From a virus: a stretch of DNA of 31,693 bases. The notes below the pieces were generated by a model. It was given only the letters and a program-made list of their open reading frames with translations. It was not told the origin of the DNA and did no database searches. The stretch is from positions 1 to 31,693 of IMG/VR virus record IMGVR_UViG_3300027859_000054. The stretch is one strand, 5' to 3'. Shown here piece after piece: positions 1,961 to 31,386 of the stretch. A program made the translations under genes and the position numbers. Each line of letters opens with the position of its first letter. Position 1 is the stretch's first letter.

Positions 1961-4384
1961 ATGGCTGAGTCAGTTGTAAAAAGTTATTTTCCGAGTCAAG
2001 TTGTACCTGACGCAGAAAAAGTAAGTGCTGAATACGGCTTACAAGTGGGTAAGGCTATTGAGTACGAATGGTTTGATGGATCTACATCTGCCAGAAGATA
2101 TAATCAGCATCAAGCTGAGTTTCATAAATTAAGACTTTATGCTAGAGGTGAACAACCTGTTCAAAAGTATAAAGATGAGTTATCTATAAATGGTGACTTA
2201 AGTTATTTAAACTTAGACTGGAAACCAGTACCAATTATATCTAAATTTGTAGATATAGTTGTTAATGGTATATCAGAAAGAAGTTATGATATAAAAGCAT
2301 ACTCACAAGACCCTTACGGTGTAAGTAAAAGAACTAAGTACATGGAATCAGTGCTTAGAGACATGAAGACGCAAGAGTTATCTTTATTTGCTCAAGAAGC
2401 GTTTGGTATTTCTTTATTTGAAAATCCTCCAGAAAAACTACCTGATAGTCAAGAGGAGTTAGACTTACACATGCAGCTTAGTTATAAGCAAGGTATTGAG
2501 TTAGCAGAGGAACAAGCTATAAGTGTATTACTTAAAGGTAATAGATACGATTTAGTAAAGAGAAGAATTAACTACGATTTAGCAACTATAGGTATTGGTT
2601 GTGTTAAGAATACTTTTTCTACGTCAGAAGGCGTTAAAGTTGAGTACGTTGATCCAGCAAATATAGTTTATTCATATACAGAAGATCCTGATTTTCAAGA
2701 TATATACTATGTTGGTGAAGTAAAAACAGTTCCTATAAATGAGCTTAAAAAAGAATTTCCAAACTTAACAGAGGAGGATTTAAAAAATATACAAGCTCAA
2801 AGTATACATAGCCCAGGTCACGCTTACAATAGATATTCTTCTTCTAGTTACGAAGATAGAAATCAAATTGAAGTTTTATATTTTAATTATAAAACTTATA
2901 TGAATGAGGTTTATAAAGTTAAAGAAACAGCTACTGGTGCTGAAAAAATAATATTAAGAGACGATACATTTGATCCACCTATAAATGAAATGACTGGTAA
3001 TTTTGGTAAAATATCAAGATCACTAGAAGTTTTATATGAAGGTGTTTTAATACTAGGTACTGATTACTTATTAAGATGGGAGCTTGCTAAAAATATGATG
3101 CGCCCAAAAAGTGATTATAGTAAAGTTAAAATGAATTACGCTATAAACGCTCCTAGAATGTATAAAGGTAAAATTGATTCATTAGTAAAACGTATAACTG
3201 GTTTTGCTGATATGATTCAATTAACTCACTTAAAACTACAACAAGTAATGTCTAGAATGGTGCCAGATGGTGTTTATTTAGACGCAGACGGTTTAGCTGA
3301 AGTTGATTTAGGTAATGGAACAAATTATAATCCACAAGAAGCGTTAAATATGTTCTTTCAGACGGGATCTATTATAGGTAGATCTTTCACTTCTGAAGGT
3401 GACATGAACCCTGGTAAAGTACCTATTCAAGAAATAGCATCTGGTAATGGTGGTAGTAAAATGCAAAGCTTAATAGCTAATTACAACTACTATCTTCAAA
3501 TGATACGAGACGTGACGGGGTTAAATGAAGCTAGAGATGGTAGTGTGCCCGACGCTAGAGCTTTAGTTGGTGTTCAAAAATTAGCAGCCGCAAATAGTAA
3601 TACTGCTACAAGACATATATTACAATCTGGATTAGCATTAACACAAGAGTTAGCTGAAAGTTTATCATTAAGAATATCTGATATATTAGAATTTTCACCT
3701 ACAAAAGAAGCTTTTATACAGAAAATAGGTAATCAAAACGTTGGCATACTAGAGGATATAGCTAAATTACATTTACATGATTTTGGTATATTTATAGAGC
3801 TTATGCCTGATGATGAAGAAAAACAAATACTTGAAAATAATATTCAAGCAGCTGTTGCTGGAGGTTTAATAGACCTTGAAGACGCTATTGATCTTAGAGA
3901 GCTTAAGAATATAAAACTTGCAAATCAATTACTTAAAATACGTAGAAAGAAAAAGCAAGAAAGAGATCAAAAGATGCAACAAGAGAATATGCAAGCTCAA
4001 GCGCAAGCAAACGCTCAGTCTCAACAAGTTGCAGCTCAAGCTGAAGTACAAAAATCACAAGCGTTATTTCAGATTGAATCTCAAATGGAACAAATTAGAG
4101 CTGATTTAAAAAATCAAAGCTTAGAAAAAGAAGCAATGTTGAAAAAAGAATTAATGGCTTTAGAGTTTGAATTTAATATGCAGCTCAAAGGTTTAGAAGT
4201 TGACAATGCTAAAAGTAAAGAACAATATAAAGAAGATCGTAAAGACGAAAGAACAAAAATACAAGCTAGTCAACAAAGTGAGTTGATAGCTCAAAGACAG
4301 AATGACGCTCCACCAAAGAAATTTGAGTCATCTGGAAATGATAACATGAGTGGATTTGATTTAGGTTCGTTTGGACCTATGTAA
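1961..4384 (+). CDS. Portal protein
   Basis: An 807-aa protein directly after the terminase, where the portal is expected. Portals form the dodecameric ring at one capsid vertex through which DNA enters and leaves. The N-terminal third has a portal-like pattern: a YARGEQ segment, then LNLDWKPVPIISKFVDIVV, a typical wing/stem lead-in. The middle is mixed alpha/beta with many aromatic residues. The C-terminal region (about residues 650-770) is a Gln/Glu/Lys-rich helix or coiled coil with runs of QAQAQ type, suitable for a crown or barrel. The end (SGFDLGSFGPM) is short and Gly-rich. The length suits the long portals of crAss-like and other large podoviruses, compared with about 535 aa in T7. 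ATG follows the terminase stop by one base, with no Shine-Dalgarno sequence. The order terminase-portal-scaffold-capsid supports the call. Confidence 0.9.
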   Translation: MAESVVKSYFPSQVVPDAEKVSAEYGLQVGKAIEYEWFDGSTSARRYNQHQAEFHKLRLYARGEQPVQKYKDELSINGDLSYLNLDWKPVPIISKFVDIVVNGISERSYDIKAYSQDPYGVSKRTKYMESVLRDMKTQELSLFAQEAFGISLFENPPEKLPDSQEELDLHMQLSYKQGIELAEEQAISVLLKGNRYDLVKRRINYDLATIGIGCVKNTFSTSEGVKVEYVDPANIVYSYTEDPDFQDIYYVGEVKTVPINELKKEFPNLTEEDLKNIQAQSIHSPGHAYNRYSSSSYEDRNQIEVLYFNYKTYMNEVYKVKETATGAEKIILRDDTFDPPINEMTGNFGKISRSLEVLYEGVLILGTDYLLRWELAKNMMRPKSDYSKVKMNYAINAPRMYKGKIDSLVKRITGFADMIQLTHLKLQQVMSRMVPDGVYLDADGLAEVDLGNGTNYNPQEALNMFFQTGSIIGRSFTSEGDMNPGKVPIQEIASGNGGSKMQSLIANYNYYLQMIRDVTGLNEARDGSVPDARALVGVQKLAAANSNTATRHILQSGLALTQELAESLSLRISDILEFSPTKEAFIQKIGNQNVGILEDIAKLHLHDFGIFIELMPDDEEKQILENNIQAAVAGGLIDLEDAIDLRELKNIKLANQLLKIRRKKKQERDQKMQQENMQAQAQANAQSQQVAAQAEVQKSQALFQIESQMEQIRADLKNQSLEKEAMLKKELMALEFEFNMQLKGLEVDNAKSKEQYKEDRKDERTKIQASQQSELIAQRQNDAPPKKFESSGNDNMSGFDLGSFGPM

Positions 4385-10082: not shown

Positions 10083-13000
10083 ATGCCAGAATTTATTCAT
10101 AACTTTACTCAAGGCAAGATGAATCATGATCTTGACGAGAGAATGGTTCCTAATGGACAATACCGTGATGCTTTAAACGTAACAGTGGCTACATCCGAGT
10201 CTAGCAATGTTGGTGCTTTACAAAATTTAAAAGGTAACACTGAAAGAAAAGGATCGCCAGCTTCTAACGGAAACTGGACCGTAGATTATATTAGTAATTT
10301 AGTTAATCCAGTTTGTATAGGTTCTATAAGACATGAGCCTACAGAATGTATATATTGGTTTATAGCTACTGATAGAGATAACAGAAAAAACGCTATAAGT
10401 GCAATAGCAGAGTTTAATCAAAGAACTGGCGATGTTACACCTGTTATAATTGATACTCAAAACATATTAAAATTTGATAAACAAAATCTTATAACAGGTA
10501 TAAACATAATAGATGACTTGTTATTCTTCACAGACAACATAACAGAACCTAAAAAAATAAATATTAAAAAATTTAAAACTGGTTCTTCTAATGGTGGTAG
10601 CCCAAAATTTAACGTCCACACAAAAATACCTAAATATTACCCCTCTAATAATTCATACCAGTATGACCCTAGTGGAGATAGTTTTACAGAAGCAGATGTT
10701 ACTGTTATAAAAAAATCACCTTTATGTAAGCCAACACTTACTATGGCTACTAGTTCAAGGTCTAGCGCTGGAGAAGAAGTATCTGGGACTGGTACCAGCC
10801 CTTTAAACACTACTTATAATCTTGTAGGAAACTTTCCTGCATCAGGCGATAAATATACTAATTTTACATATATATCTAATCCTTCAAATGGAAGTCAAGC
10901 AGCTACTTACGAGCCGTTACCTACATATCAAGAATGGTTTGAAGATAGTCAATTAGCTCCAGATGTTAGAGAGTATGCTGCTAACATGGAAACAGTTTCA
11001 TTGGTTTTTAACGCAGCGCCTACTGGCTGGGAAGATGGTGATATAATAACTTTAACCGGTAGTGCAGTAGGTGATTATAACAATATAGATGAATATTCAA
11101 TTAGACTTGAAATAATACCTAATGGTATAAACGGTAACGAAGTAGAGTTTCATATAATGTCTACTCCATCAACTATATTAAGATTTTCAGAGGACGACGA
11201 AGAACTTGTTTCTTGGGAAGCTATTTTAGAAGAGAAAGATCCTATGTTTGAGTTTGAATTTCCTAGATTTGCTTATAGATGGAAATATGAAAACGGAGAG
11301 TATTCTACTTTTTCACCTTTTACAGAACCTGCTTTCGAAGGAGATGACTTTGAGTACTTGTCAAGTGACGGATATAACTTGGGTATGCAAAATCATTTAA
11401 GATCTTTAATAATAAGTGATTTTAACTGGGGCAGTCAAGAAGTTATAGAGGTTGACGTGTTGATGAAAAAATCAAGATCCAATAATATATATGTAGTTGA
11501 TACTTTAAAAAGAGAAGATAAAGACGCTTTAAATGTCTCACCTCCTAATCAATTTAATTTAAAAACAGAATTAATAGGTGCTACTGTAGAATCTAACCAA
11601 CTATTAAGACCCTGGGATAATGTGCCTAGAGCAGCTAAAGCTCAAGAAATATCTGCTAATAGAATTATATACGCTAATTATTTACAAAATTTTAATGTTC
11701 CAAAATTAAAATTAGGTCTAACCGTGTCAAGTAGTAAGCACGAAGGTTATATTGATTCAGATAATGATGAGGAAATATCAGATGAAGCTAACTTTAGAAG
11801 ACCTCTTCCTTCTATAAAATCTATTAGAAAATACCAAGTTGGCATAGTTTTACAAGACGCTTATGGTAGACAGACTCCTGTTTTTAGTAATCCAGAGGCT
11901 ACGTTTAATTTAGACAAAACTCAAGCTGAAAAAACATCTAAATTTATAGTACAACCTTTTTCTGCAATAGCACAAGGAAGTCTTGAATTTACTCATTATA
12001 AGTATTTTATAAAAGATACTTCTAATGAATACTACAACTTAGCTTTGGACAGGTATTATTTTGCAGAAGACGGAAATGTTTGGTTGAGTTTTCCTTCTTC
12101 TGAAGCCAGCAAGGTTCAAATAGATAGTTATTTAATATTAAAAAAACAACACGATAATGACGTTGCTTCTACTGGACCCTCTAGATACAAAATTTTAGAT
12201 ATTCAATCTAAAGCACCAGACTTTATATCATCATCTAAAAAAGTTATTGCATCATCTTCTTGTAGTGTAATTAGTGGTTTTAAAGAAGGTTTTTCTGAAA
12301 TTAGTTTTACTTCTTCGGCTGATATTAATAGTGTGTTTTCACAAAGCTTTAACGGCGATAATTTTATAAGAATATCTTCAGGAAGCAGTAGTACCGATAT
12401 GATAGGTATAAAAAGTGGCGGAAGAACTGGTGGAGCTGAAAGTCCTTTTGTTGTTAAGCTTGATACTCCACTAGGATCTGAATCATTATGGATGGGTACG
12501 GGTGGTTTAACAGGTGGTTTTACTGTTCAAATAGATATTTTATCTGAAGAAGTTGATAGATTGCCCGAGTTTGAAGGTAGAGTTTTTGTTAAAATTAATA
12601 GAGATACAGACTTTGACACTAATATAGTTAAAACTTTTGCAGACACAAACAAAAGATATGGCATAGTTGCTAGTATAACATTTAACACAGGTAGACACAT
12701 AATGCCCGCCAACAACGAGAATGGTTTAAGTCATAGTCGTACTTGGGGCTTTTGGCATGGTGATCATGGTCAAACTGGTTCTAGATGCGCGTGCTCTGCT
12801 TGTCCTAGTGAATGGAGATTACCCGCGCCTTTTAACGCCAACGGTCACAGGCCTACTGATCAAGGTTTAAATGCGAACACTGTACCAAACACTATAACTA
12901 GACCTAACCCAGGTTTTAAAATTAGTTCTAATTATTTAGTAGGCTGCGCTACAGGGTCAAAAATAATCGGTATGGTTTACGTAGGCTCTAGAAACTGGAT

Positions 13001-15740
13001 TAGTAGCGGTGTTCAACCTGGTAGTGTTGAAAAAGGTGGATGTACTGGTGATTTTTGGAGTAAGAGAGCTAAGCAAGGAGAAAAAATAAGAGTTGTTCAT
13101 GTTGACGGAAGAGTTAGTGAACCTTATGAAATTAAAACGCATTGGAGACAAGCTCACGGTAGAGGTTGCAAGTATGGTTGCCCAAAGGTTGGTGGCACAG
13201 ATTGTAAAGATCAGAAAGATCAAAGCGGAAACAATAGGATGGCTTTAGTTTTAGAGCTAGACAAACCTATATCAGAAGATTGGGTAGGAAGTAGAAGCGT
13301 GTCTTCTATGCAAAACATAAAAGGTTATGAAATAGTTGAAGAAGTAATTGTAGATGACAACAGTATATTAACTTCTACTAATCCAGCTATATTTGAAACA
13401 GAACCAAAAGAAGCTGTTGATATAGATATTTATTACGAAGCTTCTTGTGCTTATCCCATATCAGACTTAACAAGTAACAACCCAGTAGCTAGAGTTTTAG
13501 ATTATTATAACTGTTATTCTTTTGGAAATGGTGTAGAGTCTGATAGAATTAGAGATGATTTTAACGCGCCGACAATAGGTAAAGGCGTAAAAGTGTCTAC
13601 AATACTAGACGAGCCTTATATGGAAGAAAGAAGATCAAGCGGTCTTATATTTTCTCAAATATATAATTCCCAATCTGGTATAAATAGATTAAACCAATTT
13701 ATACAAGCTCAACCAATAACAAAAGATTTAAATCCTGAGTATGGTAGTATTCAAAAGCTTCACTCTAGAAACACAAACTTAGTTACATTATGTGAAGACA
13801 AGTGTTTAAAGATACTAGCAAACAAAGACGCGTTGTTTAACGCTGATGGAAGCACTAACGTAACTTCAAACAAAGCTGTTTTAGGCCAAGCTGTTCCATA
13901 CGCTGGAGAGTTTGGTATTAGTGATAATCCAGAATCTTTTGCTTCTTATGGTTTTAGAGCTTATTTTTCAGATAAAAACAGAGGTGCTGTAATTAGACTA
14001 TCGCAAGATGGTATAACTAATATAGCTTTAAAAGGTATGTCAGACTTTTTTGCAGACAACCTACCTAGTTCTACTAAAATAATTGGAAGCTATAACGATG
14101 ACAAGGAAAACTATAATTTAACATTAAATTATTTAACCGACGAGTGGCAAGATAAGCTTTCTAAGACACCAAAAGATAAAACACACTGTGAAGTATCTAA
14201 CGATGAATCTGACGATATAGAAACAACTACAGTATCATTTAAAGAGACTGTTGATGGTTGGACTAGTAGAAAATCTTATTACACTAAAACTGGTAGTGTT
14301 TTTTATCCACTAGAAAGTGGCGAATCACTAAATGACAAGTATTACACTTTTAACAAAGGATTAATATGGGAGCATGCTTCTAACCCTGTTTATAATAATT
14401 TCTATGGCACTCAGTATGATAGCTCTGTTAATGTAATTATAAACGATGTAACTGAATCTATAAAAGGTTTTAAAACATTAAACTACGCTGGTACTGACTC
14501 AAGAAGATATAAGTACGGTACTAGCACTGGATTAAGTGGATTAAGCATAGAGCAAGTTGTTCATCAACAAATAGCTCCTTCAATAATAAACAGCGAAACA
14601 GTAACTCCCGGCTGGTACACTAACTACATTAATACTGACATGGAAGAAGGTCAGATAAAGGAGTTTGTTAAAAAAGAAAACAAATACTTTAACAAGATAA
14701 AAGGTTTAAAAACATTTTACAAAGATAATTGTGATAACAATGTTGACTCTTCTGCTTTCCAAACTCAAGGCTTAGGTTTTGCAGCTGTTACAGCTTCACC
14801 TCCAAGCGCTTTTAACTTGACTGTAAATATAGACACGAGCTGTAGTGGCACAGGTGATGGAGATAGCAGTTTACCTGACACAACTAAAAAGTTTTGGTAT
14901 TATTGGACTTGTAACAAGCCAAATAGTAATATAGATTTAGACATAAGACAAATAACTACAGACCAACTAGTTAAATGTGGTATTGAATCTTTTTATAACA
15001 ATTTTCCAAACGGATATAGTGATATAGATAAAAATTATTTTAATTTTAAATTTTACGCTTCTTCTGGTATAAACGTAAACACTCTTCTTTATAATGAAGA
15101 CAATCAACCTATAAGTGAAAGCGGTAAGTTTTTATATATAGAACCAACAAATACACCTGACAACAATGCTTTAAACGCTAATGTTTCAGGAACATCGGTT
15201 CCTAACACTTACTTTATATTAACAGTTACAAGTGGCGTTATAACTGCTAAAACACAATACAACACTTTAGCTGGATGCGGAACACCAACAGCGGAAGTAG
15301 ATTTTCCTCTGTTTGTTGGTTATAGATATGGATCAAATAATACAAACCTAAAAACTGGTACAGCATCGCAGCATGCTACGCCTTCTGGCAGAGCGGCATT
15401 AGCTAAAACACAATTAAAAACTTGGTTAAATTCACCATTAATAAGCGGCGTTAGCACTAATGACCTTGTTAGACTAACTGATGTTTGGAAATATTCTGGA
15501 GCAACCGGCTTAGTGGTTGGTGCTCAGCTTCATAATGATATTGGGGCTTTAAGTTCTAACGGTATAATAGCGCACAATACTAGTTCAGTTGCCTCAGCTT
15601 CTGGCTACTGGACTTACGCTACGCCTCCTACTCATCTATTAAAAACAGACACAGGTTGGACTAGTCTTGATAGTTCTTGGAAATTTATAACTTTTGAAAA
15701 TGGTATTGTAACTCACATAACAACTATGAATACTTTATAA
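10083..15740 (+). CDS. Probable tail nozzle/stabilisation protein, very large, with Cys/His-rich insert
   Basis: An 1885-aa protein whose N-terminus (IHNFTQGKMNHDLDERMVPN then YRDALNV, then a Gly/Asn segment) matches the usual opening of podovirus nozzle, stabilisation or muzzle proteins of the T7 gp12, P22 gp10 and crAss-like kind. The rest of the first half is repetitive beta sequence consistent with propeller blades and inserts. A distinctive region at about residues 890-1050 holds eight cysteines (902, 904, 907, 955, 987, 1029, 1033, 1041) plus several histidines and tryptophans. The C-terminal half has more beta-rich receptor-type sequence. It is far longer than T7 gp12 (about 800 aa), so receptor-binding domains are probably fused to it. 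ATG follows the upstream stop by three bases; the stop overlaps the next start (TAATG). Confidence 0.7.
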   Translation: MPEFIHNFTQGKMNHDLDERMVPNGQYRDALNVTVATSESSNVGALQNLKGNTERKGSPASNGNWTVDYISNLVNPVCIGSIRHEPTECIYWFIATDRDNRKNAISAIAEFNQRTGDVTPVIIDTQNILKFDKQNLITGINIIDDLLFFTDNITEPKKINIKKFKTGSSNGGSPKFNVHTKIPKYYPSNNSYQYDPSGDSFTEADVTVIKKSPLCKPTLTMATSSRSSAGEEVSGTGTSPLNTTYNLVGNFPASGDKYTNFTYISNPSNGSQAATYEPLPTYQEWFEDSQLAPDVREYAANMETVSLVFNAAPTGWEDGDIITLTGSAVGDYNNIDEYSIRLEIIPNGINGNEVEFHIMSTPSTILRFSEDDEELVSWEAILEEKDPMFEFEFPRFAYRWKYENGEYSTFSPFTEPAFEGDDFEYLSSDGYNLGMQNHLRSLIISDFNWGSQEVIEVDVLMKKSRSNNIYVVDTLKREDKDALNVSPPNQFNLKTELIGATVESNQLLRPWDNVPRAAKAQEISANRIIYANYLQNFNVPKLKLGLTVSSSKHEGYIDSDNDEEISDEANFRRPLPSIKSIRKYQVGIVLQDAYGRQTPVFSNPEATFNLDKTQAEKTSKFIVQPFSAIAQGSLEFTHYKYFIKDTSNEYYNLALDRYYFAEDGNVWLSFPSSEASKVQIDSYLILKKQHDNDVASTGPSRYKILDIQSKAPDFISSSKKVIASSSCSVISGFKEGFSEISFTSSADINSVFSQSFNGDNFIRISSGSSSTDMIGIKSGGRTGGAESPFVVKLDTPLGSESLWMGTGGLTGGFTVQIDILSEEVDRLPEFEGRVFVKINRDTDFDTNIVKTFADTNKRYGIVASITFNTGRHIMPANNENGLSHSRTWGFWHGDHGQTGSRCACSACPSEWRLPAPFNANGHRPTDQGLNANTVPNTITRPNPGFKISSNYLVGCATGSKIIGMVYVGSRNWISSGVQPGSVEKGGCTGDFWSKRAKQGEKIRVVHVDGRVSEPYEIKTHWRQAHGRGCKYGCPKVGGTDCKDQKDQSGNNRMALVLELDKPISEDWVGSRSVSSMQNIKGYEIVEEVIVDDNSILTSTNPAIFETEPKEAVDIDIYYEASCAYPISDLTSNNPVARVLDYYNCYSFGNGVESDRIRDDFNAPTIGKGVKVSTILDEPYMEERRSSGLIFSQIYNSQSGINRLNQFIQAQPITKDLNPEYGSIQKLHSRNTNLVTLCEDKCLKILANKDALFNADGSTNVTSNKAVLGQAVPYAGEFGISDNPESFASYGFRAYFSDKNRGAVIRLSQDGITNIALKGMSDFFADNLPSSTKIIGSYNDDKENYNLTLNYLTDEWQDKLSKTPKDKTHCEVSNDESDDIETTTVSFKETVDGWTSRKSYYTKTGSVFYPLESGESLNDKYYTFNKGLIWEHASNPVYNNFYGTQYDSSVNVIINDVTESIKGFKTLNYAGTDSRRYKYGTSTGLSGLSIEQVVHQQIAPSIINSETVTPGWYTNYINTDMEEGQIKEFVKKENKYFNKIKGLKTFYKDNCDNNVDSSAFQTQGLGFAAVTASPPSAFNLTVNIDTSCSGTGDGDSSLPDTTKKFWYYWTCNKPNSNIDLDIRQITTDQLVKCGIESFYNNFPNGYSDIDKNYFNFKFYASSGINVNTLLYNEDNQPISESGKFLYIEPTNTPDNNALNANVSGTSVPNTYFILTVTSGVITAKTQYNTLAGCGTPTAEVDFPLFVGYRYGSNNTNLKTGTASQHATPSGRAALAKTQLKTWLNSPLISGVSTNDLVRLTDVWKYSGATGLVVGAQLHNDIGALSSNGIIAHNTSSVASASGYWTYATPPTHLLKTDTGWTSLDSSWKFITFENGIVTHITTMNTL

Positions 15741-17770
15741 TGGCTACACAATCACATAATAATTATACAATAACAAACGTAACATATTCTGTTGCAGGTG
15801 GATCAAATGTATACACGTCACATCCTACAGCTGTTTTAACTATTACACCAGACGTTGGTTATAGCGTAACAGCAGAAGATTTTTCATGGGCTAATACTAC
15901 TTTAGCTAACGTTAACACAGTTGTTTTTACACAAGACGGTGTAAACGTAATATGTACTGTTACTTTTGACAATCCTTTTACCATGCCTACGTCTAATACT
16001 ACATTAAGTTTATGTATAAATGGAGCAGCCATAAGACAAAGACTTTCTCTTAGAGGTTATTACCAAGCAACTGGATCTAACACAAATATGTCAATAGTTC
16101 AAGATTGTCCTGTTCCTCAAGAAATATCTTATGAAGTGTCTGGTGTTGAAGGTTATCAAGCTCTTATTATAGATAAAACATATACTGCGTCTAGCGGTTA
16201 TTATTTTAATGGTAGCTTTAATATTTCTTATACTGGAGATGAAATGGTAGCTGAAAACTACAACTGTATAGAAACAGAGACACTAGACTCAAGCGGTAAA
16301 TTAACTTCTATTAACATAAAGTTTTATTATACTTTTCCAAACAACAGCGTTATAAATGATAAAATAACTGTTGAAGTACCTGCTACAAAACAAATAAAAG
16401 TTGTTCCTGTAAAAATATTTAGTTATTCTATGCTTACTACTGATGCTTCGCCTGATGGAGATTATAGAGTTATGAGAGTATTTGGTACACCTACAGCGAC
16501 GTTTACATTGGCTAGTAATAATGGATCTATATTAAGTTTTGACACATATGACGCTAGCTCAGGTGATTTATTAACATATACCACTACACCCGCGTTAACT
16601 ATACCTGCTTCTGGATTTTTTGATATAAATATAAACCTTCCAACAGTTACGTCTAATGCTGTATATTGTTTAACTTTAGGCGGAGGTAATTTAGTTTCAC
16701 CTTTTCCTCAGTCTAATCCTGTTTGTATATATCAATACGTAAACACTTCTTTAACGTTTACAGCAAGTGGAACAAACATGAGTGTAGGCTCAACATCTTA
16801 TGTGAGAACATACCCAGCTCTTTCACAACCATCACCTGGTACTGATGGATATAACAACACGTTAATTTTTTCTGTTAGTGGTGACTCTGGACAAGCTCTT
16901 TCTTTGGTTTCTAATCCAGATGTTGATAATGCTTGGAGCAATTATCCAAATATATTAAAAACAATTCAATCAACGGTTTCTAATGCTAATATAATAGCTT
17001 TAAATAATGTAACTAATTTAGTTGTTGGTATGGAGTTAGCTCAGGTTGATAATTTTATAGAGCCAGCTAGAAAAATAACAAATATATCTGGTAATAACAT
17101 TACTATCGACGGTGCAGCTATTACTATTAGTTCTTTAACTGATTTTCCTGATTTATCTTTTAATGGTAGACAAAAATCTGAATTATTTTTACCCGCTGAA
17201 GTAACACTAAATGACACTTCTACTGAAGCCACTGTTACAAGCTCTGGGTATATATCTAAATACGGTGATGCTAATGTTACGTTTAATTTAAATTTAGCTA
17301 ATTTAATAACAGTTGGATCTACAAATGCTTGTGGAAAATACACTGTTTCAGCTGGAACTAGAGGTGGTAGTTTTATATACTTTGACTGTATAACAAGTGA
17401 AAAGAGACAAATAGTATTAAACAAAGGTGATGTTAGTTTTTCAATATGTGCTTTAGCTTCGCCAGCTCCTTCCGGTAGCGGAACAGTTACAGTTGTTAAC
17501 AACAACGCGGTTTGTAATAAAACAGCTTCTACTCAGTTAGATTGTATAACATGGAGCATAGTATACAACCCAGGATTAAACGCAAAAGCTAAATCCGTTG
17601 AAGTAACATATATAGACTGTGTAACTTTAGAAGAAGAAACTTTAAATGTTGGTATAGGAGCAACCGCAACAACTCAGTGTGCTACAAGACAGGTACCTAT
17701 TAGTTCTGATCCAGGTGATGGAGGAGCAACAATAACTCAAGCATGGAGTGGAAGCAATCCATGTACATAA
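15740..17770 (+). CDS. Beta-rich fibre or adhesin-like virion protein
   Basis: A 676-aa protein rich in Thr, Ser, Asn and Val, with repeating beta-sandwich texture and no membrane segment. The first about 200 residues contain two similar modules with aromatic-Gly turns (PDVGYSVTAEDFSW and ASSGYYFNGSFNISY). The C-terminal part has two clearer repeats: FDCITSEKRQIVLNKG with cysteines 550 and 570, and IDCVTLEEETLNVGIG with cysteines 627 and 647. Both pairs are spaced 20 residues apart and the modules 77 residues apart. Such Ig-like or carbohydrate-binding modules are typical of tail fibres and adhesins of Bacteroidota phages. The start overlaps the nozzle stop by one base, suggesting translational coupling and a part attached to the nozzle. 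No receptor can be inferred. Confidence 0.6.
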   Translation: MATQSHNNYTITNVTYSVAGGSNVYTSHPTAVLTITPDVGYSVTAEDFSWANTTLANVNTVVFTQDGVNVICTVTFDNPFTMPTSNTTLSLCINGAAIRQRLSLRGYYQATGSNTNMSIVQDCPVPQEISYEVSGVEGYQALIIDKTYTASSGYYFNGSFNISYTGDEMVAENYNCIETETLDSSGKLTSINIKFYYTFPNNSVINDKITVEVPATKQIKVVPVKIFSYSMLTTDASPDGDYRVMRVFGTPTATFTLASNNGSILSFDTYDASSGDLLTYTTTPALTIPASGFFDININLPTVTSNAVYCLTLGGGNLVSPFPQSNPVCIYQYVNTSLTFTASGTNMSVGSTSYVRTYPALSQPSPGTDGYNNTLIFSVSGDSGQALSLVSNPDVDNAWSNYPNILKTIQSTVSNANIIALNNVTNLVVGMELAQVDNFIEPARKITNISGNNITIDGAAITISSLTDFPDLSFNGRQKSELFLPAEVTLNDTSTEATVTSSGYISKYGDANVTFNLNLANLITVGSTNACGKYTVSAGTRGGSFIYFDCITSEKRQIVLNKGDVSFSICALASPAPSGSGTVTVVNNNAVCNKTASTQLDCITWSIVYNPGLNAKAKSVEVTYIDCVTLEEETLNVGIGATATTQCATRQVPISSDPGDGGATITQAWSGSNPCT

Positions 17771-19944: not shown

Positions 19945-22900
19945 ATGAAGAGTGCACCATTAAAACAAGCCGCTATCGCTAGGGCTTCTTTAGAAAATCA
20001 AAAATTCTTATTCAACGGTAAATTATTTACTAGAAAAGAAATAGATAAAGCCAGAGGAAATACAGATTTTGATACTTATTTGTCAAAACACAATATAAAA
20101 CTATCATCAACACCCGAAATAACAAGTGGTGAAAATGAAGATGGACTTATAAGTAATATACTGAATAACGCAAATTTTCAGAACGATCCTGCAGATGCGG
20201 AGACCAATGTAGGATCGAACCAAAGCGATACGGTCTCAGATTTGGCAGTGTCTTTATCGGAATACAAATCTAAATTAGATACCAAAAGAGATAAAAAGCG
20301 TACTGAAGAATTTGGTGTAAAAGTAGATAATACACGTGTAAATATTCCAAAGTTTGATAAGGTGTTGTTAAAACCAGAAGACAACCCTGGAACATCTAAT
20401 TACTTAAAAGGTCTTAAAGCTTTATATACCGACCCTACTAGATTAGACTATGGTATACCTAAAGAAGAGGTTGAAGAGTTAATTTCACAAGGCGAAGATG
20501 GTATTAATAAATTATTGCAAATGAAAAACATAGATGGTGTATCTGTTGTTGATCAATACAATGATAAAGTAAAAACCATAGACGAAGTAATAAAGATAGA
20601 CAGACAGAGATACTTAGTTGATTCTAAAAAGGCTGAGATGCTAAATGATCCGCCTAATAAAGAAAAAAAGGTTGATTTTTTATTAGAACCATTTGAGCCA
20701 ACTATAAACGAAGATGGTTCGGAAAATTATGGTTTTAGAAATAATATTTTTAGTCAAGACGAAGAAGAAGGTGAGAAAAATCTTGAACAAATGTTTGAAG
20801 GAACCAACATACAAGTTGAACAAGCTAGTGTAGATGATATTCCAGAAGAGGACTATAAAAGAATGGAGTCTGAAAACCCTAACATTGGAGGTTTTGAGTT
20901 TATAAAAGTTACAATACCAGGCGCTGAAGATTCTGTTGTGTTAGAATTTAATACTGATTTTGCTGGTAATGTATTTGGTGAAAAAGCTAATAAACTTAAC
21001 TACGATATGCTTAAGGCTTATATGTTAGAAAACTCTGATTTAATATCTACAAACGCTGATGTTTTTTCAAACAGAGAGAAAAAAGCTGAAATAGCAAGAG
21101 CTATAACAAACGAAGCTACAGAGTCAAACCTAAACTACATAGAAGAAAAAAAGACAATAGGTGAAAAATATAATAGAAAAAACCTAGAAGACGCTAATTC
21201 AGAAACATCAAAACTTTTTTCAGGCACTACGGTAGCTATGCCCACTAACGCTTTAGACGGTATGGACGTACAAGGTGAAAAAGAAATGTTTGTTAAAGGT
21301 GTTTTAAGTGATCAATACAAACAAGCATACAAAGAGCTTAGCGATTTAAGTGAGGAAGTTTTAGAAAAACAATTTAAAGTTTATGGTGTTAAAAGTGTAG
21401 AAGAGCTAGCTAAAGTTGTGGTGTTAAACCAGAATGAAGTTTCTGAAATTAACGCACTTAAAAGTAAATACACTCAAATATATATTGAAGACGCAGAGGT
21501 TTTTAGCTACGGTAGCAAAGATAAGCGTAGAGAACTTGCGGCAATATACAACGTTGGTTCTAGATTTGAAGAAGTTAAGCTAACAAAAGAACAACAAGAA
21601 ATTGAGCTAAAGCAGGATATAATATTAGATACCACTAAAAACAACGCTGAGATTGGTAAAATAATAAAACAAGTAGTTGATCAAAAAGGTATAATAACAC
21701 CAGAGCAAGAAGAAACACTAACAAAAGCTTTAAACAATATGGGGATTCTTATAAATCCTCTTGAAAACACTGTAAGAACTCAAACAAACATAGACGAGAA
21801 CGGTGTTGAGACAACTGAGATATATAACGAGGCTATTCTTAAAAATCTACAAGCGCTTTACGATAATGTTTACATAACCAACGAAGCAAACTATAAGCTT
21901 TTTAATGATTTAAACGAAGAGAGTCAAGATATTGCAGACAAGCAAGGTGATTTGTCTATAGCTATGAACACTGCTTCAAGAAATTATGATAGAAGCGAAA
22001 AGTATATATCTAACGTAACGCTTGGAACAACTGATATTTTTATGGGTATTGGTAATTTAGGTTATAATATTATAATGCTTGGGACTCAAATGGATGAAGA
22101 CAGTGTTTTTCAATCATACTACGAAGGTTCTAATAGAATTAGAAACTCTTATGTTAGAGATATAGATTTTAGCTCTAAAGAAGGTGGCGCATTTAGTCCA
22201 TCAAAAGGTTATCTTGGGCTTGGTAATTTTGGTGCTTTTTTAATGCAAGAAGCAACAAATCAATTACCTATATTAGCAGCTATGGTGGCGAGTGGTGGTT
22301 ACGCAGCGGTAGTTGTTGGAGCCTCTTCAACAGGTCAGAAGCAAATGGATATGACATATCAAATAATGAATGGTATGGAAGATTATAGTCATGCTAACAT
22401 GTGGTTTACAAGTTTAGGTTATGGTATTGCTGAAGGCGGTTTTGCTCATCTTACAACAGTACCTATACTTAATAGAGCTAAGAAAACTCTTTTAAGAGGA
22501 AATAAACTTAAAGGGTTTCAAGCTATGGAAACTGGTCAAAAGCAATGGCTTAAAGAAAACTCTAAAGGAACTGTTACAGATATACTGCTAGAGCCATTAG
22601 GCGAAATAGGTACTGTTGGTGCTCAAAATATGTTTGACGGCAACGATATAACTATGGGTATGGACCACGCTGGGTTTAGTGGTTTAGGTTTTGGTATATT
22701 GTTTAGTGGAATACCTTTTCTTCGTGGAGCATATAACTCTAAGTTTTCATCATATGAAAATCAAAGCGAAATGAGAACCTTAAGAGGTGAAATAGATGCT
22801 ATGAGTAGTAAGCTTGACATGTTAAGAAAAACAGGTGGTAGTTTTCTAACTAGAGACCAGTTAATTGAAAATATAAAAATAAAACAAGATAAGCTTAATA

Positions 22901-25900
22901 GCTTAATTGAAAGTGATACTCAGTTAATAGAAAACACTTTAGGTGCAGAAGCTATAGGAATGACTATAGAAACTAGAAACAAGCAGTTAGAGCTACAGAA
23001 CAAAATAAACGCAGTAAACGCAAACACTGATCTTGACCAAGCCACAAAAATAAAATTAATAAAAGAATACGCTGCAGAGTTTGACAGACGAAATGCTATT
23101 TTAGATACGGCGTTGTCTAACGATAATAAGAAAAAGCTTAGAACAGAGTTTGAATTATTAAACGATGCAGACACAGATAGATATAATGATTACTTAACAA
23201 AAGCAGAACAAGAGTTAAATAGCTTAGATCCTAACAAAGATTACTCTGCTGATAAAATAAGAAATAAAGGCTACGAGCTTTTTATGAGAGACAAGTTTGA
23301 AGAGAGTGATTCTCAAGCTGGTGCAGAGGGTGTTGAAATAGAGATGTTTGAAACTGTTGATGAGGCTGTTGTCCATGTACAGGGTTTAATAGAAAATGGA
23401 ACGGTATCAGAAGCAGATGGAGAATTAATGATACAAGGTTTCAAACAAGGTAACGATGGCGCAGCTGTTAAAGGTACTGACGTAACTATTTCTATAATGG
23501 AAAATAGACTGAAAAATGAACAACAGTATGTAAAACACCATGAAATAGGTCATCAAGTATTTTGGAAGATATTTAATGGAGAGATTGGTTTTGAAGATGT
23601 TTCTAGTCAACTGCTAGAGTCTATGAGTAACATTGACAATAAGGTTTACCAAGACTTTATAAACGATCAACGTATATATGACAACAATGGAAATGTAGAT
23701 TCTAAAGAAGTTATATCTGTTTTTCTTGAATACATTGCTGCTGATAGATTTGGAACTAAAAAATCTAAAGGATTAGCTGGGTTGTTTGGTGTGCTTACTG
23801 AAGTTAAACTTAAAGATAAATACAAGTTTGACTTTAAAGGTGCTGATGATTATTTTTCTTTCGCTGTTGAATTAGGTAAGAAAATAAATAATGGTACACT
23901 TACAAAAGAAGATATATCTGATGCTAGTCAATCTCAAGTTGTAATAGACGCTAAGTCAAACGATATAATCAACAACAGTAGGCAAGCTCCTTCAAACATA
24001 GCAAACAGTGCTAGCACTAACTTAGAAGGTATGTTAAATGACTATGTTTCTGGTCGTATGAACAATGATAGATCTAAAAAAGGTTTACCTAAGCTACCGC
24101 CTGACTATACACCTAAGCCTGAAAAGAAAAGAGAAAAAATTAGAGGTTTTGTAAACGACATGCTTAGGTATGATGTTAACGGTAATTTTGTTAACAATAT
24201 TATGGACTCAAAATTAGTTACCGAGTCAGACGCTATGGGTCCTTATATAACCACTATTTCTAATAGAATATGGAACGGTTTAGATCCTATGAATAGAGAG
24301 GGTCAAACTTTAGAAACATGGAAGGAATTAGTTGCGATGGAGCTATCTACCATGATACAACAAGAGTATTTAAAACCAAACAAGGATGGCGTTACTAAAT
24401 ATCAAGATTTAGATAAGTTTGTAAGAAACAGAGGTTATTTTAGAGTTTTCTCTTTAGCAGAAGAAACATTTAAACAAACCCCGGCAAGCTTAGGATTAGA
24501 GACTGTTGCAGATGTTACTAACGAAAACAATGAAACACAAGCAGAAGAAGTTAGTGTTGTACCAGGAAGAAAAAACTTTGGAGATAAAGTAAAGTTTATA
24601 AGTGATGGCAAAGCAATTACAATACCTAATATATTAATAGACAGAATAAAAGACAATATAGTCAAAACATTTAGATTAGGTAACTTTAAAAACAAAGTAG
24701 GGACAAATAAGTTTAGAACTGAGTTAGCAAAAAAATACTCAAACAGTATAGGTTTGATTTTTAGAAAACTAATGCAGCGTGGTGAAAACTTTAACAATGA
24801 TGTTAAATTAAGTCGAGAACAAGTTAGAGGTAATATCAGCGAGTTTTTATCTGCTAACTTTGACAATGTTTATGATCTACCTGTTGATGTTCTAACTAAA
24901 AAATATCCTTTCTTAACTCAGTCTACAGGTGTTAGAATGAACGCTGAACAAATAAGAAATCATAACGATGCTGTAGACAAAGGTTTAATTGTAGCTAAAA
25001 AAATTACTGATATAAAATCTGGACCTTTTATATTTGAAAAAGTAAAAGATAAGAAAAAAGCTAAAATTGATTTTTTAAATTACTTCGAAGGTAATAACGT
25101 AGCACCTAACACAAGAGGCGCAAGACAATTATCACTAGCTGATACTTTTGCTCAAGAAGCTGGTTTTGATGTTCAAGCGGAAGTCTTAATGGAGGCTGGT
25201 TTTAAAACAGAAGCGTTCATACAAGATCTTAGTAAAAATGTAGGTAGAGTAGCTTTTAGCGCGGTAAATAAATTAACTGTTGATAAGCAAAAGGTTTTTT
25301 ACGCTAGCATACCTGGTGTAGCCTCACAATTAAACCCTAGCTCTACAAACTGGGGTAGTGAAGATAGTGTGTTAAACACGTTTAAGTCTTTACTTTCTGC
25401 AAACCTACCTGATAGCTTTACAAAAAAAGAAATTAACGCTATTGCTAAAGACCTAACTAGTTATGCCAAGAGGTTTGATTTAGTTGATCCTTTAGTTAAA
25501 AACGACACAGGAGCTTTAACAATGTTTTTAGAAACGATGACTTCTGAAGGTCAAGTTAACCAAGCTTTAAAAGAGTATTTAGGTTTAAAAGATAATATAT
25601 CAGAAGGTTTTAACTCTAAAGAAAGAATAGAAAGACACAGAGCTTTACCGTTAGATTACATAAAACAATTTGAACCTGGAACTCCTGAGTTTGAGCAAGC
25701 TGTTATAGACATAGTTATAAACGGCCCTATGTACAAAGGCGCCACGTTAATCGGTAACGGTAAGTTTACAATAGAAGACGGTAATGTAGTAGAAAACAAA
25801 GAAGCATCTAGAAAAGGAACACATAGATACCAAGTGTTTTTAAACACTTCAGATTTTTACAATCACTTAAATACCATACCAGGTGTTGATATAGATATAA

Positions 25901-28900
25901 AACTAACGCGTCAAAAAAAGTTACCTTGGCTAAAAATAAATGGTAAAGAAATATCCACTAATGATGTAACTTTAATACCTGAAACCAGCAAATCAGGCTT
26001 GAGCGATAGGGACTTTGAAGGTAGATTAGAACAAGCTAAAAATGCTAGAAGATTTGTAAAAAACATGATGGAAATGGTTGTCGACGGAGATTACGACAAT
26101 ATGGATCTTGCTATGTTGATGAAGCAGATGGATTCTCAAATGACAGCGCCTTTAAAAAGAGCCGCTAACTTAGAGTACGTTGTAGAAGGATTAAAAGCAG
26201 CGGACGCTAGGTATGAGCATATGATGCCTACTAACTACGTCTTAATGAACTTAGTAGACTACTATAAAAATAATAGATCAGAAGCTGGTAATTTATCAGA
26301 TAAACTATTTGAAGAATACAAAGTAGCTATTATACCAAAAAATATGGACAACTTTTTAACTAAAGTAGGTTTACAGTCTAAAATGAACCTAGGTTATAAA
26401 GTTGGAGATCCTGTTTGGAAAAGATATTATAACATTAGAACATGGGGTAATCCAAACTTTGTTGCAATAAAAAGTATTAATCCGGATGCTAACGGAGAAA
26501 TTATAGGTGAAGCTTGGGAGACTGCTGGTAAAGCTGTCAACAAACCTGAGTTGTTTAAAAAATTACAACAGCTAAGAGCAGAGACAAAAGCTATATCATT
26601 AGCTAGTACTGTTGCTTTTTCTAAAAAACCTAAAGGTATAAGTGTTTGGGATTTTGATGATACACTTGCTCAGACTAAATCTAACGTGCTTTATACGCTG
26701 CCAGACGGCACTAAAGGTAAAATAGATGCTACACAGTTTGCGTTACAATCTGCTGACTTAGAAGCTATAGGTGCTAAATTTGATTTTAGCGAGTTTAGTA
26801 AGGTTATGAAGGGTAAAAGAGGCCCTATGTTTGACAAGGCTGTTAAACGTAATAATAAATTTGGTAATGAAAATGTATTTATACTTACCGCTAGACCACA
26901 GAACGCCGCGCCTGCTATACACACTTTTTTAAAAGGTATAGGCTTAGACATACGTTTAGATAATATTGTGGGCTTAGAAGACGGTACGGCTAAAGCAAAA
27001 GCTGACTGGATGATAACTAAAATAGCTGATGGCTACAATGATTTTTATTTTGCAGACGACGCTATTAAAAACGTTAAGGCTGTAAAAGAAGTATACGATA
27101 GTTTCGATGTTAAAGGTAAAGTTCAGCAAGCCAAAGTAGCTTTTAGTCAAAGTCTAAGCGACGACTTTAATAAAATGATAGAGCGTCAAAAAGGTGTAGA
27201 CGCTAACAAAAGGTTTTCTGAAGTAGTAGCAAGAAGAAGAGGCAAGAAAAGTGGTAGATTTAAATTCTTTGTTCCACCATCAGCTGAAGACTTTAGAGGA
27301 TTAACGCAATATATTTTTGCTGGTAAAGGTAAACAAGGTGAAGCAGATCAAAAGTTTTTTGAAGATTCTTTAATGACACCATATTTTAAAGGTGTAGCAG
27401 CAATAGAGTCAGCTAGACAAGCAATTAAAAGAGATACTAAGGCTTTGTTAAAAATGTATAAGCCAGTTGTTAAAAAACTAGGTAAATTAATACCAGATGG
27501 TGATTTTACTTTTGACTCTGCTATAAGAGTTTATTTATGGACCGAGGCTGGTGTTGAAATACCTGGTATATCTAAAAGAGATCAGAAAAAATTACACAAC
27601 TTAGTTAAAAATGATTCTGATTTATCTGGTTATGCCGATGGATTACTATCTGTTTCAAAAGCAGAGACATGGCCAGAACCTGGTCAATACTGGGACACTC
27701 AAACAACATTGAGTGATTTACAAAACTTAACAGATAAAGTAAATAGAAAAGAATACTTATCAGAATTTATAGAGAACGTTGATATTATATTTAGTAAAGA
27801 GAATTTATTTAAAATAGAGGCTTTATATGGTAAATCTACTAGAAGCGCTATAGAAGATTCTATATACGCTATGAAAACTGGTAGTAATAGAACAAGAGGA
27901 GGTAACAGTATAAATAACGCTTGGTTAAATTGGATAAACAACTCTGTAGGTACTATAATGTTTTTTAACAGAAGATCTGCTTTATTACAAACAATATCTT
28001 CTACAAACTTTATAAACTGGGGTGACAACAATATATTAAAAGCCGGTTTAGCATTTGCTAATCAAAAACAGTATTGGAAAGACTTTGCAATGATTTTTAA
28101 CTCTGACAAACTAAAGCAAAGACGTAGTGGATTAAAATCAGATGTTCAAGAAGCTGAAATAGCTAATGCTGCTAAAAACACGCAGGATAAAGCAAATGCT
28201 GTTATATCTTATTTACTTAAAATAGGTTTTACACCTACACAGATAGCAGATAGTTTTGCTATTGCTGCTGGTGGTGCTTCGTTTTATAGAAACAGGGTAA
28301 ATACTTATATAAAAAAAGGAATGTCTAAAGCAGAAGCTGAGGCCGCTGCTTTTCAAGATTTTAGTAAGGTTTCAGATGAAGCACAGCAGTCTGGTGATCC
28401 AGCTTTAGTTTCTCAACAACAAAGAAGTACGGCTGGTAGATTAATACTAGCGTTTCAAAATACACCTATGCAGTATACTAGATTAATGAAAAAAGCTGGT
28501 CAAGATATTATAAACGGTAGAGGTGATTTTAAGACAAACTTTAGTAAAATAATATATTACGGGGCTGTACAAAACTTAATATTTAACGCTCTTCAAAATG
28601 CTCTATTTGCTTTAATACCTGGGTTTGATGATGATGAAATTGAAGATGAAAAGTTAGAATTAAATCAATCTCAAAAACAAGCTAGGATATTAAACGGTAT
28701 GATGGACTCTATAATTAGAGGTAGTGGTATATATGGAGCTGTTGCTACAACTATAAAGAATACTTATTTAAAGTATTTACAGCAAGAGAAAAAAGGTTAT
28801 AATGCTGACCACGCTTACACTTTAATAGAAGCTGCAAATATATCACCACCTATTGGATCTAAGTTTAGAAAAATATATAGCGCGATACAAACTAAAAAAT

Positions 28901-29403: not shown

Positions 29404-30686
29404 GAAATATTATAATTACTATTTTAGTACTATTAACTTTCACGTTAAATGCACAACAACCTATTATAAAAATTGGTAGCAAAGACGTAAAAAAAGAAGT
29501 TAAAAAAGATAAACCAAAAAAACAATTCTTTAAAAAGTTTTATAAAGATTTTTTTAAATATGCAACTATATATGGTGCTGGTGATTATAGAGCTCCTTAC
29601 GAGTCATCTGATAAAAAATATCTAATAAGACAGCCTGATGGTGCTGGTTTGTACGATGTGCCTCAAGTTGTTGATGTGACAGAGTATTTTCCTTCTGATT
29701 ACAGAATAGGTTTTGGTATACGTAAATTAGGTAGGTTTGATTATGAAAGAAAACCAGGTAACTTTTGGACTGGTGATCAAAATGTAGAAAGACAAAATGC
29801 TTTGATAGCACCTACATCTGCTGTAAAAGGCTGGGAATATTTATTTCATTTTGAAAAAGAAAGACGTAGAGGTGAAGAGTGGAATAACCAAAGATACTTC
29901 CTAAGACATACTGGTAAGTATCACATTGTTAAATTAGAGTCAAGATACCAAGGTGCTTTTGATTTTAATTATAATGCTGTTGATGTTAGAGCTAGATTAC
30001 CTATAGGTAAAAAGTTTAGTATATCTGCTGGCGCAGCTTTTAGAACACATGAAAGAGTTTACGGTGTTAATCCTTACGAAATATGGGTTAGTGCTTTGGA
30101 TGCTAATGGTAATCAAGAAAACTATTGGTATGAATTAGCTTACGAGTATGGTTATCAGGACGCTTACTATACTACTGAAATTTATAACCCTATAACTGGT
30201 GAAGAAGAAAACATTGGTGGTTATTTTTGGTGGAACCCAGAAGGACAAATAGTAGCTTCATCTGATCCTCAGTTTAGAGATGGTCCTTATAAACAATTAA
30301 TATCACGATATAATAACGATATTCTAGGTAACACAGGAACTTTTGGATTAGTAAGTCCAGTTGTAGGTTTTGACTGGTATCATTATGGGTCTAAGTTTTG
30401 GGCGCATTTATATGGATCTGCTTTCTTACCTTATCACAAATATGTTATGGGTGACAAAGATGATCAAGGTAGAATACCGTTGTCATATTTATATAGAAAT
30501 AGCTGGGATCAATATGGTTTAGCTGATGCAGCTGACGGAGAACAATGGTGGGATTACCAAACGGGAGCTAATATTGGTTGGAAGTTAACTAAATCAATAG
30601 GCGTGTTTGCCGAAGGTGAATATACTAAAATGTGGGACTCAGAATTTTTTATAACAACATTTGGAATTAACATTACACTTAGATAA
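29400..30686 (+). CDS. Exported probable outer-membrane beta-barrel protein
   Basis: A 428-aa protein with a clear signal peptide (MRNIIITILVLLTFTLNA, cleavage probably before Gln19). The mature part starts with a Lys-rich segment (about residues 28-52). It continues with alternating aromatic/polar strands rich in Tyr, Trp, Phe, Gly and Arg, such as YFLRHTGKYHIVKLESRYQG, VDVRARLPIGKKFSISAGAA and SIGVFAEGEYTK, and ends on a strand (FFITTFGINITLR). This texture and terminal strand are typical of Gram-negative outer-membrane barrels, although the last residue is Arg rather than Phe or Trp. The ATG overlaps the giant gene's TGA (ATGA). Possible roles are superinfection exclusion, envelope weakening at lysis, or nutrient uptake during infection. 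It could also be a secreted soluble beta protein. Confidence 0.6.
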   Translation: MRNIIITILVLLTFTLNAQQPIIKIGSKDVKKEVKKDKPKKQFFKKFYKDFFKYATIYGAGDYRAPYESSDKKYLIRQPDGAGLYDVPQVVDVTEYFPSDYRIGFGIRKLGRFDYERKPGNFWTGDQNVERQNALIAPTSAVKGWEYLFHFEKERRRGEEWNNQRYFLRHTGKYHIVKLESRYQGAFDFNYNAVDVRARLPIGKKFSISAGAAFRTHERVYGVNPYEIWVSALDANGNQENYWYELAYEYGYQDAYYTTEIYNPITGEEENIGGYFWWNPEGQIVASSDPQFRDGPYKQLISRYNNDILGNTGTFGLVSPVVGFDWYHYGSKFWAHLYGSAFLPYHKYVMGDKDDQGRIPLSYLYRNSWDQYGLADAADGEQWWDYQTGANIGWKLTKSIGVFAEGEYTKMWDSEFFITTFGINITLR

Positions 30687-30688
30687 CA

Positions 30689-30976
30689 ATGGCAGCACCA
30701 GAAATAGGAGAGAGCACTAAGGTGACTCTAGATTTAAAAACAATAGGTTTAATAATAGGTGGAGTAGTTTCACTAGCAAGCATGTATTTTATAATGCAAG
30801 CAGATATAGCTCTAGCTATGGAAATGCCTAAACCGGTTATTGACAGGGTTGAATATGATTTAAAAGATGAATTAATTCGTCAAACAATCATGGACACTCA
30901 AGATGATGTGGAAGAAATAAAAGAAACTATAGATAAGATAGATCAAAGACTTTACGAAATACAAAAAAATAGATAA
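30689..30976 (+). CDS. Small single-helix membrane protein with coiled coil
   Basis: A 95-aa protein. After a short polar N-terminus (TKVTLDLKTIG), one hydrophobic helix spans about residues 19-42 (LIIGGVVSLASMYFIMQADI). A charged C-terminal half follows with heptad spacing (DDVEEIKETIDKIDQRLYEI), likely a coiled coil. No signal cleavage site is seen. This layout occurs in some holins and inner-membrane spanins and also in unassigned membrane proteins of marine phages. It sits between two exported proteins, two bases after one and overlapping the next start by one base (TAATG). A lysis role (holin or i-spanin) is plausible but not shown. Confidence 0.5.
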   Translation: MAAPEIGESTKVTLDLKTIGLIIGGVVSLASMYFIMQADIALAMEMPKPVIDRVEYDLKDELIRQTIMDTQDDVEEIKETIDKIDQRLYEIQKNR

Positions 30977-31386
30977 TGAAATACTTAATTTTACTTCTAA
31001 TACCATTTTTATCTTTTACACAAACTAATGTGCCTGAAAAATACTGGCTGACTGATTCTGGTTTTGAAAAAGCTATAAGCGGTACTTCTGCTTTTGGAGA
31101 CGAAAGCGAAAAGCCTGTTGTTATAGAGTTTTGGGCTAAGTTTAACGAGGATAATTGCTTCTCTAACTGGAACAAATTAAAAGATGTTACATACTATAGA
31201 GTTGATATAGCTAAAGCGCCAAACGCAAAGAAAAAATATAGAGTTCGTATGGCACCTACTCTTATAATATTTAAAAACGGTATTAAAGAAAAAGTTTTTA
31301 AAGCAGGTTTAGATCTTGTGTTGCCTGCAGATTTAAATGAAATACAAGAAACTATAAACGAAATAAATAACGCAAGTAAATTTTAA
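30976..31386 (+). CDS. Exported thioredoxin-fold protein lacking CxxC
   Basis: A 136-aa protein with a signal peptide (MKYLILLLIPFLSFT, then Gln16 at the likely +1). The mature part shows the thioredoxin pattern: a strand with FWA (residues 52-54), a second strand giving YYRVDIAKAP, and the cis-Pro loop MAPT (Pro94) followed by LIIFKNG. Where CxxC normally stands (residues 57-60) it reads NEDN, and the only cysteine in the protein is Cys61, next to that site. Disulfide exchange by the standard mechanism is therefore not possible; a single-cysteine or purely structural role is more likely. Such proteins would act in the periplasm. The start overlaps the upstream stop. The fold call is good by pattern; the function is open. 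Confidence 0.7.
   Translation: MKYLILLLIPFLSFTQTNVPEKYWLTDSGFEKAISGTSAFGDESEKPVVIEFWAKFNEDNCFSNWNKLKDVTYYRVDIAKAPNAKKKYRVRMAPTLIIFKNGIKEKVFKAGLDLVLPADLNEIQETINEINNASKF

Follow-up and report, generated by a model that had tools for sequence, protein, structure and literature searches.

The closest described counterpart of the protein analyzed here is gp44, the muzzle protein of phicrAss001 (structures 7QOL and 7QOK; PMC10172136), which carries a crass domain at the tail tip. Section 9 of that paper describes this distal domain as formed by insertions into an immunoglobulin-like domain and as bearing exposed loops. The domain varies in length between crassviruses through such insertions, and a role in contact with the cell surface and in the first step of gate opening has been suggested for it. 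The account given in that section of the muzzle's encounter with the host and of its opening is a proposal rather than a demonstration. The same section compares the muzzle with the nozzle protein of T7 (gp12), whose ring-joining domain and propeller resemble those of the muzzle; in contrast, the crass domain, in which the cysteines considered below are found, has no counterpart in the nozzle. Disulfides do occur in the tail and the portal vertex of phicrAss001. The main text of PMC10172136 describes them for the tail hubs, the rings and the portal-vertex protein without using the word 'cysteine', and the tail disulfides, which may include bonds of the muzzle, are tabulated in its Extended Data Table 2. 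Among the titles and abstract openings listed from one library, a search of the literature on crAss-like tails, muzzle proteins and hypervariable phage tail tips found no work on muzzle cysteines.

The window, that is, the whole 31,693-base virus record analyzed in this work, contains an open reading frame at positions 10083-15740 of the plus strand that encodes a protein of 1885 amino acids. Of the Pfam muzzle models, only the C-terminal one, crAss_MUZ_C, matched this protein, with an E-value of 3.1e-5 and 24.8 bits, below the cut-off of 27. When 12 aligned members of the family were compared with the same models at an E-value of 0.01 or better, crAss_MUZ_C matched 11 (best 1.1e-18) and crAss_MUZ matched two (best 7.3e-17). 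The window protein also matched phrog_14478, a virion structural protein, with an E-value of 4.4e-128. An AlphaFold2 model of residues 385-1262, based on an alignment of 90 sequences and with a mean pLDDT of 78.5, matched the muzzle fold, which is characterized by propeller-linked IG and crass domains. The structures closest to this model were those of the phicrAss001 muzzle, 7QOL_P and 7QOK_A (Foldseek E 6.7e-7 and 2.0e-5; VIA Z 13.2 over 382 residues and 12.9 over 400 residues), and the next matches reached a Z of 7.2 or lower. The window protein and gp44 share this fold over residues 385-1200 of the former (model residues 1-816; Z 13), although they are only 9-12% identical and the window protein is about 500 residues longer. 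Named matches among predicted viral structures included a crassvirus muzzle domain protein of Virus NIOZ-UU157 (rank 2) as well as crAss-like stabilization proteins. Searches of solved-structure sequences gave no relatives, either with the single sequence or, as a profile, with the 12-row alignment.

The gene order of the window is terminase, portal, head protein, further structural genes and then the muzzle. The same order is annotated in the uncultured podovirus MW202828.1, whose terminase is the closest to that of the window in the phage collection (65.6%), followed by the terminases of Elemovirus phages of Flavobacterium (47.9%). Four isolated Flavobacteriia phages, phi38:1 and Calle (both Pervagoviridae), Gundel (Pachyviridae) and Elemovirus, have muzzles that are homologous to the window protein in blocks, at 28-31% identity, and several like-sized structural genes lie just upstream of them, as in the window (about 3 kb of upstream DNA was compared). 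Its predicted fold identifies the protein as a muzzle of the crassvirus type, related to the nozzle of T7, from a flavophage-like crass relative, a designation that makes no claim to a place within Crassvirales proper; its host is presumed to be one of the marine Bacteroidota. The initial annotation had named it a nozzle protein. The Pfam, Foldseek and VIA matches agree with it on a tail-end protein but refine the family to the crassvirus muzzle, which has the propeller and ring-joining domains in common with the nozzle (PMC10172136, section 9). By analogy with the crAss-like muzzle, we assume that the protein forms a hexamer that closes the tail tip.

Bases 12744-13205 of the window, which correspond to residues 888-1041 of the muzzle, had drawn attention as an insert rich in cysteine, histidine and tryptophan. 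The translation bears out the eight cysteines at residues 902, 904, 907, 955, 987, 1029, 1033 and 1041, as well as the motifs CACSAC, CKYGC, WHGDHG, THW and AHG; the motif HSR (residue 884) starts four residues ahead of the region. The remaining 14 of the 22 cysteines of the protein lie outside residues 902-1041. When the protein was shuffled, a 140-residue window with at least eight cysteines appeared in 40 of 5000 shuffles, and 20 cysteine, histidine and tryptophan residues within 154 residues appeared in one of 2000. The concentration of cysteines was also apparent in 62 homologous stretches (the near set, described below), where they make up 1.92% of the region (204/10608) against 0.21% of its two flanks (16/7673), a nine-fold enrichment.

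The overall range of the structural match to gp44 places this part of the modelled protein in the crass domain. The cysteines fall within a fast-diverging stretch of the domain that covers residues about 858-1089 (12654..13349, plus strand). In a second model (pLDDT 69; model numbering + 799 gives protein numbering), DSSP assigned strands at about 858-866, 961-967, 1001-1006, 1015-1026, 1051-1059 and 1079-1088. Loop A (residues 888-921; 12744..12845, plus strand), with C902, C904 and C907, lies in the first long connection. Loop B (residues 1027-1051; 13161..13235, plus strand), with C1029, C1033 and C1041, lies between the fourth and fifth strands. In the 385-1262 model, pLDDT values of the 10-residue blocks around C902-C907 and C1029-C1041 were 63-83. 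A structural search with the stretch alone returned weak matches to a GH110 glycosidase (Z 6.1, rmsd 12.1), to beta-barrels of V-/F-type ATPases (Z of 5.7 or less) and to EF-Tu (about 4), and a decorated small beta-barrel is plausible from the models. The muzzle was absent from the best 50 matches of this search, a result that carries no conclusion on the corresponding part of crAss001, and a sequence search with the 240-residue stretch alone gave no relatives.

In all 82 relatives, the positions of query columns 866 and 1080 enclose a version of the stretch, 71 to 623 residues in length, and both models place beta strands in it. The region is not, therefore, the clean insertion that had been suggested, and a recent insertion by transfer is likewise unsupported, as each of these relatives has a stretch at this place. 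A scan of genome contigs for further relatives added one distant locus, L178. Unlike the window protein, the muzzles of the four isolates (L015-L018) have no cysteine in the corresponding stretch, whose length in these phages ranges from 71 to 173 residues, and MW202828.1 has three cysteines between its aligned blocks. Comparison of 28 hand-picked clade members showed that mean pairwise identity is lowest, for the first 1600 residues, in residues 881-1080 (0.16-0.24). In 14 pairs, also chosen by hand, dN/dS was 0.07-0.41 in the stretch versus 0.04-0.13 in the remainder of the protein, and in none of the 14 did the stretch fall below the remainder; these pairs share rows, and dS exceeds 1 and is saturated in several of them. 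The aligned sequences thus establish that the stretch diverges fast, in a pattern that falls short of proof of positive selection. Strong positive selection acting on the stretch as a whole was not supported, as dN/dS did not reach 1 in any of the 14 pairs, a few of which have saturated dS.

We then compared the loop cysteines among near relatives. The near set comprised 62 rows, the window and 61 of 79 loci, after 18 loci had been omitted by eye as apparent copies or fragments (L170, L174); it was drawn from the best 80 relatives and hence leans towards the query. In the alignment, cysteines of the two loops were present in concert: 44 rows had cysteine in both loops, 12 in neither, six in loop A only and none in loop B only (Fisher p 8.6e-9, a value that ignores kinship). 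Thinning at 60% identity of the region left 29, 10, 3 and 0 rows in the same classes (42 in all), and thinning at 40% left 24, 4, 3 and 0 (31 in all). These loop counts are barely sensitive to the exact alignment of the cysteines, whereas counts for single columns are sensitive to it. Among the 44 rows with cysteine in both loops, the position of C907 (codon 12801..12803, plus strand) is cysteine in 43 and that of C1041 (13203..13205, plus strand) in 42. In contrast, C902 is cysteine in nine of them and C904 and C955 in two each, and altogether six of the eight query cysteines, like the query histidines, are lineage-specific. Other near-invariant positions in these rows were D894 (43/44), Y1015 (44/44), R1027 (41/44) and G1028 (43/44). 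Homologs with scattered, non-conserved cysteines had been named as the outcome that would count against a metal-binding or disulfide-stabilised domain; this description fits six of the cysteines and does not fit C907 and C1041.

One cysteine in each loop was the commonest state (18 of the 44 rows). It was followed by two in loop A plus four in loop B and three plus one (six rows each); four rows had two plus two and three rows three plus three. The sum of the cysteines of both loops was even in 38 of the 44 rows and, once these had been thinned at 60%, in 23 of 29. Much of this excess is due to the one-plus-one rows, since without them the sum was even in 20 of 26 rows and, after thinning, in only 10 of 16. 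When all cysteines of residues 856-1051 were counted, the total was even in 38 of the 62 rows and odd in the other 24. Loops with cysteine were longer than loops without it, measuring 32.3 versus 25.0 residues for loop A and 22.8 versus 14.2 for loop B, so that changes in length and in cysteine content are confounded.

The association was also analyzed in a wider set of 112 rows, obtained from 151 open reading frames and the window by thinning at 97% identity, which left 115, and by dropping three on the length of the stretch. This set leaves out muzzles of 2400 amino acids or more, and its loop borders differ slightly from those used for the near set. Cysteine was present in both loops in 37 rows, in neither in 54, in loop B only in 17 and in loop A only in four; 15 of the 17 B-only rows had at least one further cysteine in the stretch. 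On a quick tree of the 112 rows, built with the stretch left out, cysteine in both loops requires eight changes, and of the 52 rows in the query's clade, 35 have cysteine in both loops, 16 in neither and one in loop A only. Nine independent pairs gave averages of 5.4 differing in the same way, 0.3 in the other way and 3.3 without difference (median p 0.0625, range 0.0312-0.375). The link between the two loops is consistent, if less clean in the wider set than in the near one, yet formally marginal once kinship is removed. Changes in both loops can also be followed at close range. L148, L150 and L155 have two cysteines in loop A and four in loop B, and their near relatives L139, L140, L141 and L175 have one in each, a gap of one cysteine in A and three in B; outside the stretch, segments of the L150 and L175 muzzles are 90-99% identical.

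On balance, we favour the interpretation that a disulfide between C907 and C1041 pins two variable loops rigidly on an exposed surface of the crass domain at the tail tip, and that the extra cysteines elaborate on this bond. According to this model, the muzzle hexamer plugs the tail tip, and the stretch would consist of beta strands and long, fast-evolving connections inside its distal crass domain. Loop A (about 888-921) and loop B (about 1027-1051) would most likely be bridged by the C907-C1041 bond, and the extra cysteines of some lineages, which bring the total over both loops to six in the window, would form further bonds. Such a staple would keep the long variable loops rigid on the surface, where they may make contact with the host and assist in initiating gate opening. 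Virions are assembled in the reducing cytoplasm, and therefore the bond would form after lysis. The disulfide-stabilised domain proposed in the initial annotation is thus supported, as a putative bond, for one pair, by the co-occurrence of loop A and loop B cysteines in the near set, and does not extend to the other six cysteines, which are not conserved.

The main competing explanation is that the cysteines, together with histidine or aspartate, bind a metal (zinc or an iron-sulfur cluster) by which the tip is kept intact. The three cysteines per loop of the window, with their CACSAC and CKYGC motifs, would suit such a site, as would the two-plus-two, three-plus-three and two-plus-four rows; in the 44 rows with cysteine in both loops, moreover, histidine makes up 1.33% of the stretch versus 0.18% of the flanks, and at least one histidine is present in loop A or in residues 1015-1051 in 14 of the 18 one-plus-one rows. 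However, the other four of these rows have no histidine in those loops, and none of the query histidines is kept, the positions of H892, H1020 and H1006 being histidine in 3, 8 and 6 of the 44 rows. D894, which might serve as a ligand, is near-invariant also in alignment A4, some rows of which lack the cysteines, and is therefore not tied to them. When at least three conserved cysteine or histidine ligands were looked for among the eight cysteines and the tabulated histidine positions of the query, with aspartate not counted, only C907 and C1041 proved to be kept. As one plus one is the commonest state, a disulfide fits better than a metal site, and the metal-binding domain suggested at the outset is not upheld as a family feature. 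We consider metal binding unlikely overall; single lineages, that of the window among them, may have a site of their own. The cysteines might also form no pairs, or come and go freely in a surface region that changes rapidly, and play no structural role there. The lack of conservation of six of the eight query cysteines, the raised dN/dS and the indels of the region, together with the 17 B-only rows of the wider set, agree with such drift; but the conservation of the C907 and C1041 columns, the nine-fold enrichment over the flanks and the joint presence of cysteines in both loops of the near set make it improbable.

Two further alternatives accept the conserved pair and differ from our interpretation in what it does. 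The bond might join neighbouring subunits of the muzzle rather than parts of one chain, given that the muzzle is a hexamer and that inter-protein disulfides stabilise the phicrAss001 tail (PMC10172136). Covariation is blind to the distinction between pairing within and between chains; we would place the bond within one chain and regard a bond between subunits, too, as improbable. Alternatively, the pair might act as a redox switch, in which the loops are freed by reduction or thiol exchange once the tip meets the host envelope, and the gate opens as a result. Its location in the domain thought to start this opening (PMC10172136, section 9) would be appropriate for such a role, but 12 of the 62 near relatives have no cysteine in either loop and the pair is therefore not needed for every muzzle; we hold a switch to be very improbable.

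If the C907-C1041 disulfide is real, it would represent a way of building tail-tip surfaces that are variable and yet rigid. A broader proposal, which we put forward as possible but doubtful, is that these phages, which probably infect marine Bacteroidota, vary the shape of their tail tip through evolving disulfide patterns, with a constant core bond and extra cysteines arising in concert in both loops, so as to present differently shaped rigid surfaces to the host without a diversity-generating retroelement (DGR). The cysteine-rich loops of bovine antibodies, as presented in PMC7366855, offer an analogy, since they are variable, differ in their number of cysteines and are biased towards even counts; they have no kinship with the muzzle, and their diversity is somatic, whereas that of the muzzle is found between phage lineages. 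DGR targets of crAss-like phages, as described in PMC12386605, resemble the stretch in being a variable exposed part of a tail protein, but they are C-terminal lectin domains of tail fibres. We found no sign that the stretch is itself a DGR target: no repeat of bases 12600-13300 was found elsewhere in the window (62% over 60 bases, 10-base seed), the reverse transcriptase model PF00078 had no match in 14 records, which may be fragments, and no adenine bias was seen by eye in the base changes between close pairs. As the part of the modelled tail tip that varies most, the stretch is a candidate site of host contact in a widespread group, with at least 598 related stretches in viral contigs, and the proposal names two residues and two loops of one domain that can be tested directly.

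Cysteine content was also unusual in neighbouring genes. The frame immediately downstream of the muzzle (15740..17770, plus strand) encodes 676 amino acids, 14 of them cysteines (2.07%), and had no Pfam, PHROG or PDB-sequence match at an E-value of 0.1. In each of four relatives, a frame of 683-691 amino acids with 11-20 cysteines lies just downstream of the muzzle; the product is possibly another exposed tail part. In contrast to the muzzle and to this neighbour, the product of a 3152-residue frame at 19945-29403 has no cysteine at all. It contains a HEIGH motif and a weak match to polynucleotide kinase/phosphatase, and is perhaps an ejected protein. Long open frames matching it in four relatives encode 2983-3172 amino acids with 0, 0, 2 and 2 cysteines. 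Further downstream, a frame of 136 amino acids (30976-31386) has a signal-like start and, by eye, a thioredoxin-like look, and it adjoins a 428-residue frame (29400-30686) that is outer-membrane-like in look; neither had a match in PHROG.

A few muzzle homologs were exceptionally large. Those of L081 (frame from 6501), L098 (6498) and L087 (6495) comprise 2903-3368 amino acids and contain 42-87 cysteines, which lie mostly in C-terminal parts with repeats of the CVDPGxGxGQ type. The L098 protein, which also passes the cut-off of crAss_MUZ, ends in a Hint (hedgehog/intein-like) domain at residues about 2888-3027 (PT-HINT E 1.8e-9 and Hint E 6.9e-8, both over cut-off). It would be unusual for a protein of the tail tip to process itself.
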